Assembly: GCA_025174535.1 (NCBI GenBank)
Contig: JALBUN010000003.1
Location: 1,138,501 to 1,202,500 of the forward strand
DNA: 64,000 nt
Direction: 5' to 3'
Source of the DNA: Cantharellus purpuraceus
Lineage: Eukaryota > Basidiomycota > Agaricomycetes > Cantharellales > Hydnaceae
Shown here: piece by piece, positions 2,761 to 52,393 of the stretch
Layout of the letters: every line of letters begins with the position of its first letter
Position numbering within the stretch: position 1 is the stretch's first letter
Made by a program: the position numbers and the translations under genes
Notes under the pieces: model-generated
The model's input: only the letters and a program-made list of their open reading frames with translations
Databases searched by the model: none
Told to the model about the DNA's origin: nothing

Positions 2761-3081
2761 GATATCCTGCTGCAAACCAGCATGGCGGCGGTGGAGGGCT
2801 TCAAACCGGTAAGTTGGTGGCTCAGAATATCAATAAAAGTTGTGGGCCAAGAGTGTATCCTATGACAGTCCAAGTAATTGACTATTAAGCACTAGTGTCG
2901 AGGCGAGGTCTATCCAGTGAAATGAGTGCTTCATTTTACATAGTATACGACCCTCCCTGTCGGTTCACGCGTTGGTTTATAGCAGGTGGACATGCTTGTA
3001 GACCAGGCAAGACAACTATAGAGATATTAAGTAAGCAGCGGGGCTTCAATTGCCTGTCTGTTTTGCCGCTCACCATTATCC

Positions 3082-4062
3082 ATGCCTCCTCTTCGCTCTA
3101 CTACCTTTAACCGACTCAGTAAGCCATACGACGTGTGTATGCAGAATTGTAAGGGATGTGCAACGCCTTAAATTTTGCACAGCGACCGATACCAACTGCT
3201 CCTCGAAATGGGCCGTGGGTGCATGACCGAGCCCCAGGGGCAGTGCACCCAGCAGCGACGAACACACGCCTCATCGTGTCTAACCTTCACTGGGAGGTTA
3301 CTGTTAAGGATCTTGTAGTGCGTTTTATCCGTCACACTGTGTTCAATGACTTTGAATTATTTTATAGAGCATATTCAGCACAATTGGGATGCTGGCGCGC
3401 GAGCCAGTTATTAGGGTACGAAACCACACTTCGGGGACACAGAGAGACGCACGAGTTTACGAAAATCCCTGCTATCGCCTGGATCTGTGACTGGCGCACT
3501 ACTACTAGTTTGATCGTAGCGGCCGCTCGACCGGCGTCGCCTCCATCACTTATATAACCCCAGCCGAGGCGACAAGAGCCAAAAACCAACTCGATGGAAA
3601 AATTGCAAAGAGTATGATACAAGTACCCTTGCCTTGTTTTATCTATTGATCTTTTTGTAGCCCAAGCGATGGCGATTGCTTACGACACATCGACCCCTCG
3701 AATTCCTCCTGGCGTCAAGGCAGCACGCCATGGAGCACCTGACTCCCTTCTTAACAGGGTCTCAAATCCGCCCCTTCTTGCTCGACTCTCTTCAGGAGAC
3801 ACCCCAGAAGCACCCGCGGCAATGTAAAACACACCTGACGCTAATACCTCTTGTTAGCTAACCCATTTGCCATAGGGGAAGCTCAAAGTCCATTCGTGCA
3901 CATCCTGCCGCTCACGGAGCGAGACGAGGGCGAGGCGCACGGCCCAGTGCACCGCGAGTTCGAGGACCTAGGAAAGATAAAACGGCAGAAGAGTTGGATA
4001 AAGAGTTGGAGACGTTTATGGGTAATGACGGCAAGGAGAATGGCGATGTGGAGATGTCATGA
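3082..4062 (+). CDS. YRA1: ALYREF/Yra1-type mRNA export adaptor
   Basis: RNA-binding adaptor that couples mRNA to the UAP56 helicase and the export receptor. Exons 3082-3132, 3183-3317, 3368-3415, 3509-3611, 3661-3823 and 3876-4062 give 228 aa. The RRM is clear: TRLIVSNLHWEVTVKDLV (RNP2), then SIFSTIGMLAREPVIR, FDRSGRSTGVASITY (RNP1) and ITPAEATRAKNQLDGKIAK, followed by the family's AMAIAYD. The C-terminus is Arg/Gly-rich (GARRGRGARPSAPRVRGPRK) and ends in AEELDKELETFMG, the UAP56-binding motif. The usual N-terminal UAP56-binding motif is not seen; the first 17 residues come from a short exon that is the least certain part. Conserved RRM residues fix introns 2-5. Confidence 0.88.
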
Positions 4063-35507: not shown

Positions 35508-35954
35508 TTGCAATGGGTGTGCACTATAGCTGGAGGTGTGACTCAAAGGTGCTTTATGGGTGGCACATCACAGATTGTACAAGGCACATATAGAAAGGAT
35601 ACTGTCCTTTCTAAGGTGCTGGGGGCACCTAAAGAGCATGCACAATTTGGCATGTATGATGGTCTAATATGGACCAAAAATATATACAGGCATGATGTCA
35701 TCTGTATACCCCACTCAGCGTTTCTGAAGGGGAGGAGGCTGGCCAAGATAATAATCTACCATGCGCACCAAGTAGTTGGCCATTTTGGTCAACTAAAGAC
35801 TGCAAATTACATTCAACAGTAGTACTGGTGGCCAGGCATGGCCACCGATGTCAAGTCATTCTGCACTTCATGTGTGAAGTGCCAAATGAATAAAGACAGT
35901 ACAAAGAAACCCACAGGGCTTCTTCATAGCTTGCCAGTACTGGAATGGCCCTGG
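35508..35954 (+). pseudogene. Ty3-type integrase zinc-finger fragment, hairpin-dense
   Basis: Encodes the H2C2 domain of a retroviral-type integrase: KIIIYHAHQVVGHFGQLKTANYI, one TAG stop, then YWWPGMATDVKSFCTSCVKCQMNK and GLLHSLPVLEWPW. The HHCC zinc ligands are all there. Sequence is lost on both sides where LTR-A fragments begin. The DNA contains a chain of perfect hairpins described under findings. Confidence 0.75.
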
Positions 35955-36268
35955 CTGTTTTGGAACCCGTATAATTATGGTGTTAGGGAAAACTCTAAAT
36001 CACCACAATTCCGTGAATGAACAGCTGAGAAGAATATCAAACCCTGCTGCAAACAACCCCAGAAATGATTTAACATTTGGACTTTGATTACAATCCCTTG
36101 TATTGGTCAATACAGACTATATGTAGAAAAGTAATACATTTTTTAGCAGCAAGAAATGAATAAGACTTCCAGAGTCTAGAGTTCATGGATGCTTAGGGGT
36201 CCATATATTCCAAAATGAGGGGAATGCACTTAGAGGCTAAAGGAAGTAGGTGGATGAATCTGACCATC
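35955..36268 (+). repeat. LTR-A fragment (5' part)
   Basis: Starts TGTTTTGGAACCCG and follows the LTR-A consensus through the region ending in the 'gaatctgaccatccaac' motif, then breaks off. Confidence 0.75.
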
Positions 36269-41471: not shown

Positions 41472-42090
41472 AAATACAATATATAAGGAGGTCATTCTGC
41501 CTCTGAAATAGTAACATATTCAACCTATTCTACCCATCTTCTGCACACCAGTGTGACTAGAGTGACATACAGTGTCATCCTCTATCTCAGTAACTGTTGA
41601 TTACCAGTTCAAGGATCTTTTACAGTTGTGTAACTGTACTTGATTGCACTCAAAGTAGTGATATTCCTGCTTTGGGCATGAGTGTAGTATCTGCCTCACG
41701 TGACTACAAATCTACAGGGTGAGATTGTCTGTTGATAGTCCTGCCATTAGTGCTCTTGTTTAAGTTACTATTGTGCACTGCCTTTGCAGAGCATTAGAAG
41801 CAGTTGCTAGACTACTCCACACATTGCTGTTACCTGCTTCAGAGTGTCACTGGTTGGACGGTTGGATTCATCCACCTACTTCCTTTAGCCTCTAAGTGCA
41901 TTCCCCTCATTTTGGAATATCTGGACCCCTAAGTGTCCGTGAACTCTAGACTCTGGAAGTCTTATTCATTTCTTACTGCTAAGAAATGTGTTACTTTTCT
42001 GTGTAGTCTGCATTGACCAATACAAAGGATTGTAGCCAAAGTACAAATGTTAAATTGTTTCTGGAGTTGTGCTGCAGCAGGATTTGATAT
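41472..42090 (-). repeat. LTR-A fragment, inverted
   Basis: A second minus-strand LTR-A segment lying back-to-back with the full copy and missing its 3' part. Confidence 0.65.
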
Positions 42091-42416
42091 AATCATCATT
42101 CAATGATTCTGTTTGAACATTGAGTGCTTCAGCTTCTAGCACTCTGTTTTCTTTTCTTGAGCAGTTGCCTTCAGGTGACTGCTGCTGTCCTGATCTCAAT
42201 GAACCATTCTGTGGGGAGCAGTTCTCCTTCAGGGTCAGGATATACATCTGCATTTACATAGATGTAGTTGGGATGACTCTCTGTTGGGGAGTCATCAGCA
42301 TAGTAGCACGATACGGAGGTGGAGTTGATGGAGGTGGAGTTGATGGGGATGGAGATGAAGGAGATGGAGGTCCAGAGTTTGGACTTGGTGTTACAGGATG
42401 TAACACCAACCAGTGA
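42091..42416 (-). pseudogene. Retroelement coding fragment, hairpin-dense
   Basis: Minus-strand frame includes STSVSCYYADDSPTESHPNY and YPDPEGELLPTEWFIEIR, which looks like a decayed retroelement polyprotein, but I cannot assign the family firmly. Bounded by LTR-A pieces. Contains several 6-8-bp perfect hairpins. Confidence 0.4.
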
Positions 42417-43501: not shown

Positions 43502-45154
43502 ATGTCAAACCCTTTGGCAAGCATGAGCATGGCCGAGCTTGAGCAGTTGCTCTTGGCCTGATGGAAGGAAGAGGAAGAGGAGCAGAAATGGAAAGAGGAG
43601 GAGGAAGCAGAACAGAGATGGAAGGAGGAGGAGGAGGAGGAGGAGGTGGAATGGAGATGGAAGGAGGAGGAGGAGGTGGAACGGAGATGGAAGGAGGAGG
43701 AAGAGCAGAGACGGAAAGAGGCGGCAAAGACAGAACAGAGAAGGAAAGAGGAGGAAGTGAAGGCCGAGAGGGCCCACAGGGTCAAGGAACTTGCGGCCGC
43801 GATGGAGGCTGCAAGACTGAAGGAAGTGGAGGAGCAGGCACACAAGCTAGAAGCCACCATGGAGGTAGAGGAGGAGGTGACTGGGGCAGGGGTGACCAGT
43901 CCAGAAAGCCCAAGTGTGCCTATACGGACAGGGACCCCTGAAGTCGCCATCATCTCCATTACACGGACAGAGACAACTCATCCAAAAACTGTCACTGCGG
44001 AGGACTTGCTGTTACGTCTGCTGGCATGGCCATTATTTGGGTTGGGTGCAGCTGAGGAAGATGAAGGGGCAGAGGTGGAGAGGGCGGAGGTGGAGGTGGA
44101 TCCCGATGCCAATATGGAGCTTGACACAAATGCGGAACCCGAGGCAGGTGTGGATGTCAGGATGGATGCAGAGCCGGATCCAACTTCAAATTGTTATGAG
44201 GAGATGGCTTGGGTAGCTGCGGTCGAGGCTCGCAAAAGAGCGGAGCTCTATGCCACTACCACTAAGAAGAATCTCAACATCGCGGTCTTTTCATTGAAGG
44301 CATACCCGAGTGCTGATATGGAGAAGTGGGAGGCAGATCGGAGGGTCATATGGTGCAAGGCGGAGAGTCACGTGTTGGCGACCCGTAAGAAGGAGCTGCG
44401 TGTTGTGAGGTCGGCGATCCAGCTTCGCAAGCGTGAGATGGAGAAGGTGGCGGCAGAACAGCAGGACAAGGAGGAGGAGAGGGAACACTTGGAGGCTGCA
44501 TTGAGAAGGGGGGGACCACCCAAGCCTCTGGCTCCAACGGGGCCATTTGGTGGGCCCGGCGTAACTTGCGACTTGTGTCGTGATGTGGGCATGGAGTGCA
44601 TGTGGCCTACCGGCCCAACTCACCGCCTTTGGTCCTGCGATCGTTGTTGGGGTCGGAAAGGAGGGTGTAGGATCGATGGAAAGTTTGATCCCCGGAGTTG
44701 GAGCGTCAAGCCCCGACTAGTGGTACAAGGAGGGGCAGAGAAAGAATCGGAAGGTCGTCCGACCAAAAAGCGGCAGACAGAGACAGGTGCTGTGGCAGCC
44801 AGGGGTAGCGGTGTCGGATCAGAAGGGGCAACGACCGGTGCAGGTACGGGGCGCGTCTCTGTGCCCCATAGTACTGTGGGCCAGCTTATCTGGCTGGTTA
44901 ACCTTCAGTTGGAGCACCTCCAGCAGATGGAGGGGTTACTAGTGGACTTGGTGAAGATGATGAAATGGAAGGAGGTTCTGGAGGGTCAGCGGACAGCTGA
45001 GTTACGTCGGTTGTGGAAGTTCATGGCCCCTTTGGACGAGGATTTGGACATGGGGGATGAGAAAGATTGGGTGTTGGATGTAGAGAGTGATGATGAGTTG
45101 GAGATGGAGCCTGAGGTAGATAAGGGGAAGGGAAAAAGGAAACGCGATGTATGA
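43502..45154 (+). pseudogene. Antisense ORF in the Ty3 element: coiled coil plus Cys cluster
   Basis: Opposite in strand to gag-pol. The frame starts MSNPLASMSMAELEQLLLA, meets an in-frame TGA at 43559-43561, then is open for 531 codons. The N-terminal half is an extreme Glu/Lys/Arg coiled coil (repeats of WKEEEE). The C-terminal half has CDLCRDVGMEC and then WSCDRCWGRKGGC, a six-Cys cluster reminiscent of a degenerate Zn2Cys6 domain, followed by a helical HSTVGQLIWLVNLQLEHL and an acidic end with a basic tail KGKGKRKRDV. A possible DNA- or chromatin-binding accessory protein. It could have been captured from a host gene; function unknown. Confidence 0.65.
43560..43750 (+). repeat. GGA/GAG-rich low-complexity tract
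   Basis: Purine-only codon repeats encoding the WKEEEE units of the antisense ORF; open in several frames and prone to slippage. Confidence 0.7.
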
Positions 45155-45305: not shown

Positions 45306-48300
45306 TTAAAGATTCATAAGAGGGCCAGGTTTGTCTGGATAAGTGGAGTGAAAGTCGGAGACGGATTCGGATGCATGATCGAGTTTGGACGCAGAGATCC
45401 ATGAAGACTCTTCATCGGTGCCTTCGTATCCAGTCCATTTGACTAAGTACTGGAGCTTGCACTTGTATCGACGGTCGATCTTTGAGTCCAGGATCTCAGT
45501 TATCTCATATTCATTGTCTCCTTTGATGATGATCAGGGGAGGTGGAGGTTGCGTGTGACCGGAGATCTCGTTTGTAGTAGCGGGTTCGAGCATTGATATA
45601 TGGAAGACTGGATGAACTGCTCAGAAGTGGTCTGGGAGGCAGAGGGTGAAGGACCTGCTGCCTGTGCGAGCAATGACCTCATAAGGACCTAAGTATTTCT
45701 CGGAGAGTTTCTTCGATGGGTGGGTGGTCCGGAAGTGTTCAGCCTTAACGAATACTTTGTCTCCGATTTGCAGGTCCGGAGCCGGAATGTGGCGTCGGTC
45801 TGTGGAGACTTGATATTGTTTCTGGGCATCGGAGATGGTTTCTTGGAGATGTTGGTGTAGTTGATTGAGGTTGGTTATGAATTGGCAGGCTTTGGTGGAG
45901 GCAAGTTCTTTCTCAGGGTGGACAGAGATATTTGGATGATAGCCTTTATTAGCAAAGAACAGAGAGATGCCAGTAGTTGCGTTCGGAGCATTGTTATATG
46001 CAAACTCTGCTATCGGAAGTAGGTCAGCCCAGTTGTCTTGTTGATAGTTACAATAGATTTGGAGATATTGTTCCAGGGACTGATTCATTCGTTCCATTTG
46101 TCTGTCTCCTTCCAGATAGTATCCAGAGGTGAAGTGAAGTTTCATGTTGAGAGCCTTTCCTAGTGTGCAGAAGGAGGAGGACACAAACTCCGAGCCCCGA
46201 TCGGATGTGACATGCGATGGGACTCCGTGTTTAGAGAATATGTGGAGAATGAACAATTTAGCTAGTGAGGTGGAGGTGATGGTGTCATGCGTTGGAATGA
46301 ATAGTGACTGTTTAGTGAACCTGTTGACAATCACGAGTATGGTGTTGTATCTGAGCGATGGGGGAAGCTTCTCTATGAAATCCATGGAGATGGAGTTCCA
46401 TGGTTGCTCTGGGACTGGAAGTTGCTTAAGCATTCCATAGGGTTTGTGCCTTTGCGATTTTGAGCGCATACACGTGGTGCAGGAGTTACAGTAGTGTTGA
46501 ATGTATTCTCACATTTTAGGCCATACATAGTCCCGTTGGATTAATCCTTGTGTGTGATTTTGCCCAAAGTGGCCAGAGATCGGGTGATCATGGTAATACT
46601 GCAAAACTCGGAGTCGGAGACTGTTGGTGTCGGGGACGTATATCCAGTTGTTGTGTCGGAGGTGTCCTTTGGGGTCAAGTGACCATTTTGGATCAGAAGG
46701 GTTGTCCAAGTGTTTAACTGCAACAGGATCGGATTGGAGTGATGAGCGGATGTCGGAGTGGAGTTGGTTGATGTCCATAATGGTGACAGCTCGGAGAGTG
46801 GGAGTCATGAGGGTGGATGCTTGTAGGGACGATGCCAGCTGCTTGTTAGTAAACACAGGACGAAAGTTGTGTGGGTTTACAGTGGCATAGTCGCTATTCC
46901 CCTCTTTAGGGTAGACGTCCATCATCTAGTTAAAGTGTCAGGCTTTGCTCTGAGTTGACCTGGGCGGAAATGGATAATGAGATTGAACTGAGATAGGTAT
47001 TCGGACCATCGGACTTGTCTCCAGGTGAGCAGTTTTGTTGTGGAGAAGTATTTCAAGTTCTTGTGGTCCGTTATGACGTCCACCGGATCGGAGGGGCCTT
47101 CAAGGTAGTGTCTCCATATCTGAAAGGCTTCATATATGGCAAGGAGCTCTTTGTCATGGACGTCATAGTTCAGTTTGGGGGGCGTAAATGTATGCGAGTG
47201 AAAAGCAATCGGATGGACTTGTCTGTTGTCCGGAGAGATGATGGACAGGATTGCGGCAAGTGCATAGTCAGAGGCATTGGTCTCTAATAGGATAGAAATA
47301 TCTGGAACCCAATGAGTCAGTATTGGAGTGGAAGTGAAGGCCTTTTTCAAGGTCTCAAAGCTCTGTCTACATTCATCAGTGAAATCCCATTCCTAGTGAG
47401 TTGGGTGAGCGGAACGGTGATATCGGAGTAGCCGTGAATGAAGCGGCGGTAGAAGTTGGCGAACCCTAGGAAGGACTGTATGTCCTTGACTTTCTGGGGT
47501 TCTGGCCATTCCTGTATGGCTTTGATTTTGTCATCAGACATTGTCAATCCTGCTGGGGAGAGGATATAGCCTAGGTATTTGACCGAGTCGGAGTGGAATT
47601 CACATTTGTCAGTGCGGGTGAAGAGGCCATGTTTTCGGAGACATCGGAGTACCTCTCGGACATGTGTCTGATGTTGTTCTTCATTGTCCAAATATACCAA
47701 AATGCCGTCTAAGTAAACGAGGACAGTCACATTGAGGAGGTCAGCGAAGGTATCATTCATGAACCTCTGGAAGGCAGCCAGCGCATTGGTTAGTCTGAAG
47801 GGCATGATGCACCACTCGAAAGATCCATATCGTGTGCGGAAGGTCATTTTCCATTTGTTGCCTTCTTGGATGCAGACTAGATGGTAGGCATGTCGAAGAT
47901 CTATTTTGGAATAGATCTTAGCCTTTCGAGGACTCTTGAGTAGGTCTGCGGTGCGGGGTATCGGGTATTGGTCTTTCTTGGTGATCTTGTTGAGTCCACG
48001 GAAGTCGACACATAGATGGAGTGATCCATCCTTTTTGTGGACAAATAGGACCTGAGCTCCATGGGGAGATAGGGATGGGTGGATGAAGCCTGTGGCCAAG
48101 TTCTCATCTATGAATGTTTGGAGAGCCAGTAGCTCTTTTTGGGATAGTGAGTAGATTGGGCCAAGCGGAGGGGTGGAGTTGTCATCCAGTTCAATCTTGA
48201 GATCGTATGGTCGGTGTTCTGCTAGGGAGTCAGCTTTAGACTTGCTGAACACGTCGGCAAACTCATGATACTCCTTAGGAACCATAGATAGGTCCGGTGG
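45306..48300 (-). pseudogene. pol: RT, RNase H, integrase, chromodomain
   Basis: Minus strand. RT (48285-47400): GLNKITKKDQYPIPR, FRTRYGSFEWCIMPF, VLVYLDGILVYLD, where the second catalytic Asp of YLDD is Gly; then YLGYILSPAGL and FLGFANFYRRF. RNase H (47400-46922): LETNASDYALAAIL, ITDHKNLKYF. Integrase (46925-45621): SMDFIEKLP, VTSDRGSEFVSSSF, MERMNQSLEQYL, then the GPYEVIARTG SH3-like part. Chromodomain (45593-45306): EYEITEILDSKI, YLVKWTGYEGTDEESSWI, ending DFHSTYPDKPGP. Frameshifts near 47395 and 46925 and TGA codons at about 46508 and 45620 break the frame. Confidence 0.85.
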
Positions 48301-48419
48301 AGTTGATCAGGTGGAACAAGCGGCAAGGAATATCGGATCGGAGAGGTGAACCTGGAATGTGTGAGAACCACCCAGTTTGCTTAGTCTGGCAAAGACCATA
48401 GCATCCACCATTGATGCTT

Positions 48420-48960
48420 ATTCGGAATCATGTCAGTATACAATATTCTGATGTATATCTCATATACATCAGAATTTCAATGATACATAAAGCCAGGGAG
48501 TTACAATTTGGATATCTTAAAAGATTTTGGATGTGTGAAATTTTCATAAATATAAACATATATTCTATATTTTAATAAACTTTAAAAGATAAGATATTTG
48601 GTTGGGATGGACATAATCATTTACATGGATATAATATGTATGTATTAATATAATTGGTATTATATAGGGTATTTAGATATACAAATACCAGGTGGGGATT
48701 AAAGATAGTTCAAATTATGTTACAAGTATTGTATAAGAAAGAATCAATGATATTTGGATGTTCCCTCAAGAGAGTTGCCACCACTAAATGGGGAAAAAAA
48801 GAATTATTTTTGAGAATTATGCCAAAATATCACAATATGTTTTAATCTAGTATATTGTGTAAAATTTGAGAATCATGTTGAAATATGAAAATAAGTTTGA
48901 ATTGAAGTGTATTGTGTAAAATTTGAGGAAAATAGGTTGTATATACGTATTTGTTGTATT
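48420..48960. other. Very AT-rich insertion in pol
   Basis: About 540 bp of strikingly AT-rich DNA splits the protease from the RT part of pol, whose own base composition is balanced. It has a 14-bp perfect hairpin near one edge (48445-48475) and no long ORF with a recognisable domain. Likely a small inserted element; the exact ends are unclear. Confidence 0.55.
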
Positions 48961-49400
48961 TCTGACCAAGCGTCATTGATATAAACGGCGGGGTAGATGG
49001 AGTATCTATCAGAGCAGAGTCAGCAGAGGCAGAAGATAGTTTCGCACCTAAAGTTGCTGGTGATGTCGGGAATGACACAGCCTGTACTGGAGAATGGAAT
49101 GTGATATGGCCCAATGCCCAGTCAATCAATGGATTGTAGCGGGTGAGCCAGTTATGTCTGAGAACCACAGAACAGCTGGAGTCAAGCGGAGTAACATAGA
49201 ATGTAAGCTTCTGGATTTCTCTAACAGAAAAACGGATAGACAGATCTATAGCTCGTGAAATAACAGCATTAGTAGTGCCATCAAATAATCGGAGCAATAT
49301 CGGAGTTATGGTGTATGTATGGAGTTTATGTAAATTGGAAAAAGAGGAATTGAGGAAACAATGAGTAGAACCGGAGTCAATTAATGCTTGAATAGCGGTA
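48961..49400 (-). pseudogene. Retropepsin-like protease fragment
   Basis: Minus strand frame: ALIDSGSTHCFLN with the active-site DSG, then ITPILLRLFDGTTNAVISRA and SSCSVVLRHNWLTRYNPLIDW, typical of Ty3 proteases. The C-terminal end runs into the AT-rich insertion. Confidence 0.75.
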
Positions 49401-49539
49401 TCGGGAATGGAGTCGGAGTAGACGAGGAGGGTAAGGGAGTCGGAGTGGGAAAGAGTGGATGCGTTCAGGCAGACCTCATTTGTTGTACGGGGAGTACCAA
49501 CGCAGCCCTCAGCCCGTACGGAGGCTATAGGACTGCTTA

Positions 49540-50682
49540 CTATTTTTTTGGGTCCGTCGCTATTGTGTTGGACTTGTCCGTTGTGGCGTTGGTGGCACGG
49601 CCCTTTGCCTTTGCTGCAGACAAGGTTGCCTTATTGCAATCCTTGGCTTGGTGACCAGGCTTTTCGCAGAACAGACAGAGGTTGTTGTTCATGCGGCGCT
49701 GACGTTCCTGCTGGGTAAGTTTTCCATCCTTCCCCAGCTTGGTGGAGAGGTCCGGAGTACTCTTGTGAGCTCTGGAGTTATTGCTGGTGCTGGAATTGTT
49801 CTGACCAGAACTGGAAGCAGCAGTGTTACCAGTGTTTGACTTCTGGCCTGAGTTGGCAGTGGTCCTCTTATTGGACCCCTTGTTGGACTTTGGGGTCTTG
49901 TCCAATGATTTGTCTGATTTGTTGTTGGCCGAATTTTTGCAGGAGACCTCGGATTGACATTCCCAATAACGGGTGTCGATGGATTGGGCGAGCTTGCGAA
50001 GGGTAACCAAAGTATCCAGCTTACTGACACGTGATATCTCGTCCTTGATGCAGGATGGGAGTCCAATGTACAATTGGCATCGGAGTGCAGTGTCGCCCCA
50101 TTGGACTTTTGGGGCTAGCTGCTGGAAACTCACAATGTATTTCATGATTTTGTGATTTTCCTTCATCTGAAGTCGATCAAGTTTGTTCTCGGCATCAGCC
50201 TTGGGGTTGTAAGGACCGAAATTGGTCTGAAGTTCGGAGATGAAATCGGAGTAGTCTTCTGACCATATCGGGTCATCGGAGTTGTCCATGAGTGCTGGCT
50301 CAAAGGAGTCCAGTGCGGTGCCCTTGAGATAGGACATGGCGAAGGTGACCTTCGCCTGATCGGATGTGAACACATCAGGGCGGTCGTGGAAATTCAACCG
50401 GCATTGCACCAAGAACGGCTGGAGCTTTCGTGGATCGGAGCCATCGAAGGGGTCAGGTTCTTGGACCTTGGTCCAGGACTTAGGAGCTTGTGGGTTACGG
50501 ATGCTGCTGGCGAGCAGGGAGATGGCTTGCGCCAGATTTGGAGAGGGCAGGGTGTCGTCTTCTTTATTGATGGCCTCTATGTGGTCCGTTGGTTCTTCGA
50601 CAACCTCAGGGATGGTGTCAATGCTGGGAGTGGGCACCTCGACGGTTCATGCATGTTCGGAATTGGCAGTGGATTGTGGCAT
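49540..50682 (-). pseudogene. gag with CCHC zinc knuckle
   Basis: Starts MPQSTANSEHA, then a TGA (50647-50649), then is open to the end. Contains the capsid region (PFDGSDPRKLQPFLVQCRLNF, FAMSYLKGTALDSFEP, LPSCIKDEISRVSKLDTLVTL), a Ser/Asn/Lys-rich linker and the knuckle CLFCEKPGHQAKDC. Apart from the early TGA it is intact over 366 codons. The 38.9-kb copy has Gln at the TGA position. Confidence 0.82.
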
Positions 50683-50714: not shown

Positions 50715-51231
50715 TGTTACGCACTAGGTCCGATTGGGAGTTGGAGATTGGGTCAGAGGTTTTGTCAGAGTTGGAGCATGTCGTGGGGGTTGGAACGAGC
50801 TTGGCTTCAGCTTATGTGCTGCGCCCTCACTAATACCAGTGTCTGAGATTTCGGAGACAGAGTACAACTTAGAGAGTTAGGATCGGACTTAGGAACTAGG
50901 CGTGATTTAATATTTGAACTGGGGAATGAAGTCCCCAGTCAGGCAACTTAAATACATATTTTGAAATCTAATAATAATTACTCCGGTGATGGGTCTCCGA
51001 GGCCGACGGCCTTACATGAGTATGTCCGAGTCCGATGGGGATGGATGTCTGGGTTCCTATGGTGATGCTGATGCATCAATCAGAACCAGAGACGGATGGG
51101 AGGAATTGGCGGTGACAATCGGACAGGTAGATGGAGATGTGGTGGTTTCCAAATGGAGTATAGATTTCATATGTGTGGGGATCTGAGTGGATTGGATGGG
51201 GATCTGGACGTTAATGAATATAGTCATAACA
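50715..51231 (-). repeat. 5' LTR of the Ty3 element
   Basis: 517 bp, highly similar to the 3' LTR with scattered transitions. No obvious tRNA primer-binding site next to it. Confidence 0.85.
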
Positions 51232-51238
51232 TGTAGCC

Positions 51239-51890
51239 GATACCCACCATTCAGCAGTGGTGTGTCGTAGAACTTTCTCTGAAAGTTCTGCTCAGTAGTG
51301 CTCTGGACACTGAGGCAAGCTTAATCTTGTGGTTAACTTCCTTAAATAGGGGAAGTTCTAAGAGTATGCTGCCAAATAGGTCAGCATACCTTTCTTTCCA
51401 TTGGTCCCTCAACTGAGGGATCTGATCAGCCATATAAGTGGTTGATCCTTCACAAGACAAAGCTATTTGTGTCATGCTCTTATTTGGATCCTCCATTGGG
51501 GGATCCTTTACTGAGTCTAGTCCTTTTTTTAGGAAGGACTGTGTTGTGGGTAACTCATGTTTAGAGTTACCCCCTTGGCATCATTTATTCATGCCAATAC
51601 TCCTTCTTTGTATTGAGTTTATACCCCATGATGGGGTACGAAGAGTATCGGTATTATGCTCTTCATTGGTGGGGACTTCTTCAGTTCCCATCATGATTTG
51701 GCCTGGGCCATTAAAGTCCAGGCATATTCCTAGCTTTCATAGGAATGGAATACCAAGTATTACATTCTAATACTCAATGTTGGTGACATCAAAATATTCT
51801 TCAATGTCCTGACTACCAAGCTTTATGGTAGTGTGAGTACCATAATTTATGGTACTCCTGCTCCCAACACATGCTAATTGCAGTGGATGG
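51239..51890 (-). pseudogene. Fragment of a different Ty3-type pol, hairpin array
   Basis: One minus-strand frame across the whole segment, with three in-frame TGA and one TAG stop. It runs from the protease C-terminus (GSRSTINYGTHTTIKLG, DIEEYFDVTNIEY, NVILGIPFL, KLGICLDFNGPGQIMMG) to the linker before RT (IPQLRDQWKERYADLFG and LPLFKEVNHKIKLA). The alignment to the protease-RT junction is colinear, so only point lesions have occurred. The DNA consists almost entirely of successive perfect hairpins (see findings). Confidence 0.72.
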
Positions 51891-52393
51891 GTTGCTCTAG
51901 CACGAAGGTTTTCATACCTGTCATGCACGTGAATTCAGGGACATCATTATCCCTGTTTTGGAACCCGCAAAATTATGGTGTTAGGGCAAACTCTAAATCA
52001 CCACAATTCCGTGAATGAACAGCTGAGAAGAATATCAAATCCTACTGCAGCACAACTCCAGAAATGATTTAACGTTTGTACTTTGGTTACAATCCGTTGT
52101 AATGGTCAATGCAGACGATACGCAGGAAGGTAATACGTTTCTTAGCAGTAGGGAAAGAATAAGACTTCCAGAGTCTAGAGTTCACGGTGACGAGCCAGGA
52201 CGCATCGAGGATGCATATCGAACCACTCTGACCATCCAACTCCGCCAGCGTCTTTTTGTATCAACTTTTAAATAGCGCCGCAACTCCCTATCCACCTCAG
52301 TCTCTAATTCGAGCCATCGATCGTCACTCGTGTTTCATCGCCATCGATCATTATCAGCCTTCTATTCACACCGATCCTTTCATCATCATTCAC

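Follow-up and report, generated by a model that had tools for sequence, protein, structure and literature searches.

The window analysed herein, a stretch of 64,000 nt from contig JALBUN010000003.1 of Cantharellus purpuraceus, harbours at positions 51232–51953 a fragment of a Ty3/gypsy element (sense on the minus strand) that is packed with short hairpins. The fragment corresponds to positions 2987–3742 of a longer copy elsewhere in the genome, L016, and runs from the middle of the protease to the start of the reverse transcriptase (RT). Two further pieces of the same family lie at 35571–35955 (plus strand, 89 % identity to the L016 element) and 42088–42313 (minus strand, 90 % identity), and together contain 7 stems in 611 bp. 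The window also contains an ordinary Ty3 element at 45621–50646 and, at 43562–45154, a 530-aa open frame with a long, charged, low-complexity start and a cysteine-rich part.

The original prediction had placed an array of about 20 hairpins at 51245–51945. Such an array is real, as this interval contains 20 stems of at least 5 bp, 16 of at least 6 bp, 12 of at least 7 bp and 5 of at least 8 bp (all perfect and non-overlapping, with loops of at most 20 nt). The bounds are those of neither the fragment nor the pattern, which runs through the whole element as far as it was read. Perfect stems with arms of 7 bp occur at 51405–51420 (2-nt loop), 51519–51540 (8 nt), 51575–51597 (9 nt), 51726–51746 (7 nt), 51756–51774 (5 nt) and 51812–51832 (7 nt). 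Longer perfect arms are found at 51269–51289 (9 bp, 3-nt loop), 51364–51389 (8 bp, 10 nt), 51548–51572 (9 bp, 7 nt), 51622–51638 (8 bp, 1 nt) and 51835–51857 (11 bp, 1 nt). All 11 of these had been listed beforehand, as had a twelfth hairpin (arms 51424–51432/51439–51447), which, when checked by eye on the sequence, carries the single G-U pair ascribed to it; a hairpin at 51335–51357 (7-bp arms 51335–51341/51351–51357, 9-nt loop) had not been listed.

Dinucleotide shuffles of the same interval contain a mean of 0.82 stems of at least 7 bp and a maximum of 4, with the observed 12 reached in none of 1000, and so the estimate that chance predicts fewer than one such hairpin against at least twelve present withstands the shuffled control proposed for it. 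When the 701 nt are folded as RNA (minus strand) or as DNA (plus strand), z-scores of −14.0 and −12.5 are obtained, respectively, with 0 of 20 shuffles as low in either case, and the predicted folds are mostly strings of local hairpins. No Rfam match occurs within 50900–52200. The hairpins are thus confirmed, and they extend further than first described.

A DNA search of the 40-Mb genome (50 contigs) with the segment, in which 40 of 150 candidates were scored, returned at least 44 matches at 40 or more places, its own included, and the 39 other places were fetched for comparison. The main pieces of these copies are 84–92 % identical to the segment, with one extra piece at 78 %. By hand tally, the match starts at 51232 in 30 of the 39 other copies and ends at 51952–51953 in 35. 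The copies match one another far beyond the window fragment: L016, L020 and L022 have 5.4 kb in common, and in some copies the matches extend a further ~0.5 kb upstream and ~0.7 kb downstream of this 5.4-kb reference. Four copies (L027, L037, L039 and L041) have matches interrupted at 51316–51328, where other sequence intervenes for about 27 to 790 bp, and in four others (L033, L034, L040 and L045) the match begins there. L016 and L017 (G000 C23:2880584-2899190) lie ~12 kb apart in opposite orientation, are 95 % identical and have identical RNase H protein pieces.

On the sense strand of L016, Pfam searches of its pieces reveal, in order, a Ty3 capsid (PF19259, 1.4e-4), an aspartic protease (RVP_2, 1.7e-4), an RT (RVT_1, 3.6e-6) and an RNase H (RT_RNaseH_2, 2.1e-14), with the protease and RNase H above the curated cut-off and the capsid and RT below it. 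Open frames continue after RNase H, and three such pieces have no Pfam match; on our reading of the sequence these frames appear integrase-like. No flanking direct repeats (LTRs) are present around the element in five 6.7-kb loci, the element itself extending beyond the reference used. This is a dispersed Ty3/gypsy retrotransposon family present in at least 40 places, of which the window piece is a decayed fragment. Minus-strand frame 1 of the window copy is full of stops, and only two open pieces of at least 80 aa (109 and 87 aa) are present, neither with a relevant Pfam match. The proposal that hairpins and protein coding coexist in a Ty3 protease–RT segment consequently holds for the element, but not for the window copy, which is no longer open.

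With regard to the extent of the pattern, the 5419 bp of L016 contain 70 stems (~13 per kb) against 7.2 in shuffles, L020 contains 60 against 7.0 and L021 contains 43 against 4.5, with 0 of 100 shuffles reaching the observed count in each. The ordinary Ty3 element within the window, in contrast, has 8 stems against 4.5, a number reached by 8 of 100 shuffles. Folding of both as RNA yields a mean z of −3.34 for L016 (36 windows of 150 nt, 78 % of them below −2) and −0.63 for the ordinary Ty3 (33 windows). An excess of structure over composition-matched shuffles on the scale of the genome is therefore present along L016, the element termini lying outside the sequence read. Across the fetched loci L009–L050, family DNA contains 11.9 stems per kb and other DNA 3.0, the latter including element parts beyond the reference. 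Hairpin packing hence extends through all of the element that was read (more than 5.4 kb), at approximately 10-fold the chance level.

The remainder of the window is less uniform. Whilst its first 35 kb display 38 stems against 34.6 expected, windows with at least 4 stems per 600 nt start not only at 51 kb but also at 5.0, 35.4–35.8, 41.8–42.2 and 48.2–48.4 kb. Two of these four extra peaks overlap the family pieces at 35571–35955 and 42088–42313. Between 35000 and 43500 there are 32 stems against 11.2 expected, only 8 of which lie inside recognised family DNA; the other 24 fall within 7346 bp, for which ~10 would be expected in proportion. Tandem repeats account for little of this milder excess, and the hairpin trait may thus not be wholly private to the family. 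The ~570-bp unit at 48408–48976 is a local hairpin peak, with 4 in one 500-nt bin, and is found again, at about 93–97 % identity, in different surroundings in several of the fetched loci.

Protein searches with pieces of the element return 209 relatives for RNase H, 178 for the protease and 242 for the capsid. Amongst the matches listed (120 per search), the only named species are Ramaria rubella and Gautieria morchelliformis, both in the protease search, with three relatives named as Ramaria/Gautieria. These two species are mushrooms of the Gomphales. DNA of such relatives was sought in viral contigs, genome contigs and plasmids, and none was found. Within the genome itself, amongst the best 150 of 679 candidates, pieces of at least 57 % identity are followed only by matches of 27–29 %, with no sister family between them. 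The most diverged copies fetched, L048–L050, display 75–83 % DNA identity, and L050, the sole long match of the three, is equally hairpin-rich. In L049, positions 900–1315 consist of thirteen 8-bp hairpins at an exact spacing of 34 nt, a tandem array flanked on either side by a decayed piece of the family.

Seven open frames of L016 were permuted by swapping codons amongst positions encoding the same amino acid, with a 71-base overlap between two of the frames. Their 42 stems fall to a mean of 5.4 (sd 2.2, maximum 12, n=300), and the observed count is reached by 0 of 300 permutations in six of the seven frames. The arm residues, meanwhile, match those of relatives about as well as other residues do. 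Amino-acid identity for stem codons versus others is 0.692 versus 0.604 in the protease, 0.673 versus 0.657 in RNase H and 0.650 versus 0.583 in the capsid; for codons wholly within stems it is 0.725 versus 0.599 in the protease and 0.599 versus 0.655 in RNase H, the lower value inside stems in the latter coming from 11 codons. Furthermore, no L016 residue in the three pieces is absent from most relatives, and the arms are thus not insertions. There is accordingly no sign in these alignments that hairpin arms have overwritten protein, and the proposed process that rewrites sequence is not supported in that form; rather, the hairpins reside in codon choice. The codon register of the stems (22:10:10) does not separate the candidate causes. 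Covariation between arms at the protein level, assessed in relatives for 16 of 17 hairpins, is mostly unremarkable, with one hairpin beyond all 200 shuffles, one matched by 8 of 200 and one by 16 of 200.

Variation amongst the copies is dominated by decay. In L009–L047, CpG sites differ at 41 % of columns and other sites at 4.8 %, which suggests cytosine methylation and silencing of the family. On a first count, 117 of 120 double changes in the arms stay paired, as compensatory substitution, the check suggested in the original prediction, would produce. Two paired types occur in 38 of 703 pairs, however, and their states, apart from a few odd cells, are CG/TG/CA/TA-type transitions; in 30 of the 38, CpG occurs in some copy at both columns, and the paired cells number 512 against 518 expected for independent arms. 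Independent CpG-type decay in both arms hence explains the count, and compensatory substitution within the family was set aside as evidence. The lower divergence of stems (5.5 % versus 10 %) was likewise discarded as evidence, being an artefact of picking stems that are perfect in L016. Of 309 private stem variants, 305 are unpaired, which, alongside paired cells at the chance level, indicates that decay is unconstrained in inserted copies.

Variants shared by at least three copies probably mostly predate insertion. Amongst non-CpG variants, the shared to private ratio is 28:258 in stems and 116:590 elsewhere (odds ratio 0.55, p 0.007), and pseudo-stems chosen in the same manner lead one to expect a ratio of 0.166 (sd 0.033) where 0.111 is seen, with only 1 of 60 as low. 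This is weak evidence that stems were maintained in the lineage that was active, whatever the cause. The 28 shared stem variants comprise 10 of the G.T type and 13 of the A.C type (hand tally), and none clearly belongs to a fully compensated non-CpG pair. Of 1412 stems in the copies, 1036 are also perfect in the column majority, and 3 were gained by at least two non-CpG changes, making these weak candidates for homogenisation of one arm to the other.

As the element is packed whereas the window's ordinary Ty3 is not, and as host replication should affect both, the cause appears intrinsic to the element. We tentatively favour, as the leading account though somewhat short of a probable one, homogenisation of the arms whilst the element is reverse-transcribed by its own enzyme, with selection on the protein as a filter; its margin over selection for a folded genome is small. 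Under this account, the coding sequence would already have consisted of short perfect inverted repeats, one after another, by the time the copies spread. Whilst the RNA or single-stranded cDNA was being copied, a nascent strand would fold back on itself where a short, imperfect inverted repeat occurred; the RT of the element would then use one arm to copy the other and go back to its template, with perfect arms as the outcome. Selection on Gag-Pol would retain only those changes that spare the protein, and arms hit by point mutation would be repaired in later cycles, such that arrays stay near perfect until silencing, after which CpG sites would decay in the copies. In its broadest form, wherein the element's own replication drives an entire retrotransposon genome to perfect short inverted repeats, with the bias choosing codons over more than 5 kb and checked only by the proteins, the account is possible but held with greater reserve.

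A local fold-back process is suggested by the shape of the hairpins. In L016, stems of at least 7 bp number 12 against 1.6 expected for loops of 0–3 nt, 33 against 1.1 for 4–7 nt, 22 against 1.7 for 8–11 nt and 6 against 1.2 for 12–15 nt, with the excess peaking at 4–7 nt and no clear excess beyond 16 nt, and direct repeats show no excess comparable to that of inverted ones. Arm lengths fall from 34 stems of 7 bp to 1 of 12 bp. In fixed non-CpG columns, stems of at least 8 with one inner mismatch comprise 7 G.T, 10 A.C, 3 C.T, 4 identical and 0 A.G cases, where unfiltered shuffles contain 1.5, 2.2, 1.8, 4.0 and 2.2, respectively; the classes are those that point mutation of perfect duplexes would be expected to yield.

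Template switching between short inverted repeats has been described in yeast coding genes, with inversion of the spacer and homogenisation of the arms as its marks (PMC8604942). One spacer inversion between perfect arms is present here. The loop of the 51269–51289 hairpin reads AGA (sense strand) in 24 of the 27 copies that have the motif, TTT in L021, AAA in L030 and TCT in L014, the last being an inversion equivalent to three transversions and flanked by arms of 11 bp. The template-switch process suggested by the original prediction thus gains one event, although not the rewriting of sequence claimed for it. Against the copying account, the inversion scan finds this event only, with control scans returning 0 (reverse) and 1 (complement), and recent arm gains are few. 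Loops show no enrichment of complementary transversions, which make up 23 of 57 transversions within them and 112 of 267 outside (p 0.88). Against it, too, no relative displays an arm before and after homogenisation, and the milder excess at 36–43 kb outside family DNA tells a little against a cause confined to this element. Selection might equally explain the stems, shared variants being scarcer within them.

Such selection, for a locally folded genome (RNA, or RNA and single-stranded cDNA) in which synonymous codons are chosen to pair, is a serious possibility, if one that we place behind arm homogenisation. Gains could include, for example, compaction in the particle, concealment from antisense RNA or Dicer, or avoidance of annealing between sense and antisense strands. 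The genome-scale ordered RNA structure (GORS) of some RNA viruses would be a parallel. The abolition of the pattern by synonymous permutation is in keeping with this, as are the low fold scores of the element and segment and the scarcity of shared variants in stems. The favoured loop length agrees also, as loops of 4–7 nt are near the thermodynamic optimum for hairpins, and on the sense strand loops contain slightly more A (0.381) than the sequence outside (0.337). Selection acting on RNA would leave tolerance of G.U pairs on the sense strand, and here the evidence is divided. The strictest mismatch set, with at least 4 paired bases per side, contains 3 G.T and 0 A.C, a matter of few cases, but the larger and looser sets display no such preference, at 5 G.T versus 8 A.C with 3 paired bases per side, 7 versus 10 in the fixed columns and 10 versus 13 amongst shared variants. 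Stems extended by one G.T (26 against 4.5) or by one A.C (31 against 5.1) are in similar excess. With G.T and A.C mismatches behaving alike, there is no clear signature of sense RNA. Neither G.U tolerance nor compensatory change, the two signs of pairing upkeep at the RNA level that were sought, is found (7 G.T versus 10 A.C; 512 cells versus 518), and this, alongside the lack of a fully compensated non-CpG pair or clear arm covariation at the protein level, counts against folding selection, as does the G+C content of stems, which at 44.5 % barely exceeds the 43.6 % of the element. The two strands are closely similar, with fold z of −3.34 (sense) and −3.29 (antisense) and G.U shares of predicted pairs of 8.5 and 10.8 %, respectively, a symmetry that fits exact copying or selection on both strands.

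It is rather unlikely that the hairpins are a relic of a finished episode, of either cause, that became frozen in the one lineage that spread and has no present function. The stems are indeed common to the copies and their differences amount to decay, as seen in the unpaired private variants, the divergence at CpG sites and the 28 shared stem changes with no clear compensated one amongst them. Nonetheless, the near perfection of most stems in the copies suggests upkeep until the family spread, and the depletion of shared variants from stems points the same way. Chance or composition, for which only the RNase H frame speaks (its 3 stems are matched or exceeded in 10 of 300 codon permutations), is refuted by the dinucleotide shuffles of the segment and by the codon permutations in the other six frames, and its probability is negligible.

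Whether through folding selection or arm homogenisation, the family represents a retroelement genome that either is folded lengthwise into hairpins or has had inverted repeats imposed on it by its copying enzyme, and either cause would reveal an influence exerted on synonymous sites throughout an element. As relatives at 53–83 % protein identity are plentiful in public sequence, the family is also a ready test bed.

In its gene order of capsid, aspartic protease, RT and RNase H, the element resembles yeast Ty3 and the Metaviridae, and its sense strand is A-rich (0.329), as is that of yeast Ty3 at about 36 % (PMC11381356). The RNAs of yeast Ty1, Ty3 and HIV-1 are reported therein as mosaics of stable and flexible regions, with highly structured RNA making up as much as 30 % in Ty and about 40 % in HIV-1 (PMC11381356); here 78 % of windows have z below −2, although the measures are not the same. 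Amongst the papers listed for GORS together with retrotransposons, no title describes such an element, and amongst the titles and abstract openings listed, from a search covering little of the subscription literature, no hairpin-rich, inverted-repeat-rich or pervasively structured retrotransposon is described.

Local structure across a coding genome is known from RNA viruses, some of which display GORS, and from the hairpin-packed ssRNA phages. The element shares with these its local structure over coding sequence, but differs in having no clear G.U bias on the sense strand, in stems that are not G+C-rich and in being a retroelement. The double-hairpin and multiple-hairpin elements of mitochondria form similar clusters of hairpins; these are non-coding insertions, whereas here no insertion relative to relatives is present in the three pieces tested. 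The element also resembles the yeast genes with template switches, in that both feature arms of at least 7 bp, short spacers and, in the present case once, a spacer inversion beside perfect arms; the yeast report, however, concerns 39 genes in a species (PMC8604942), whilst here ~13 stems per kb are strung along a single element.
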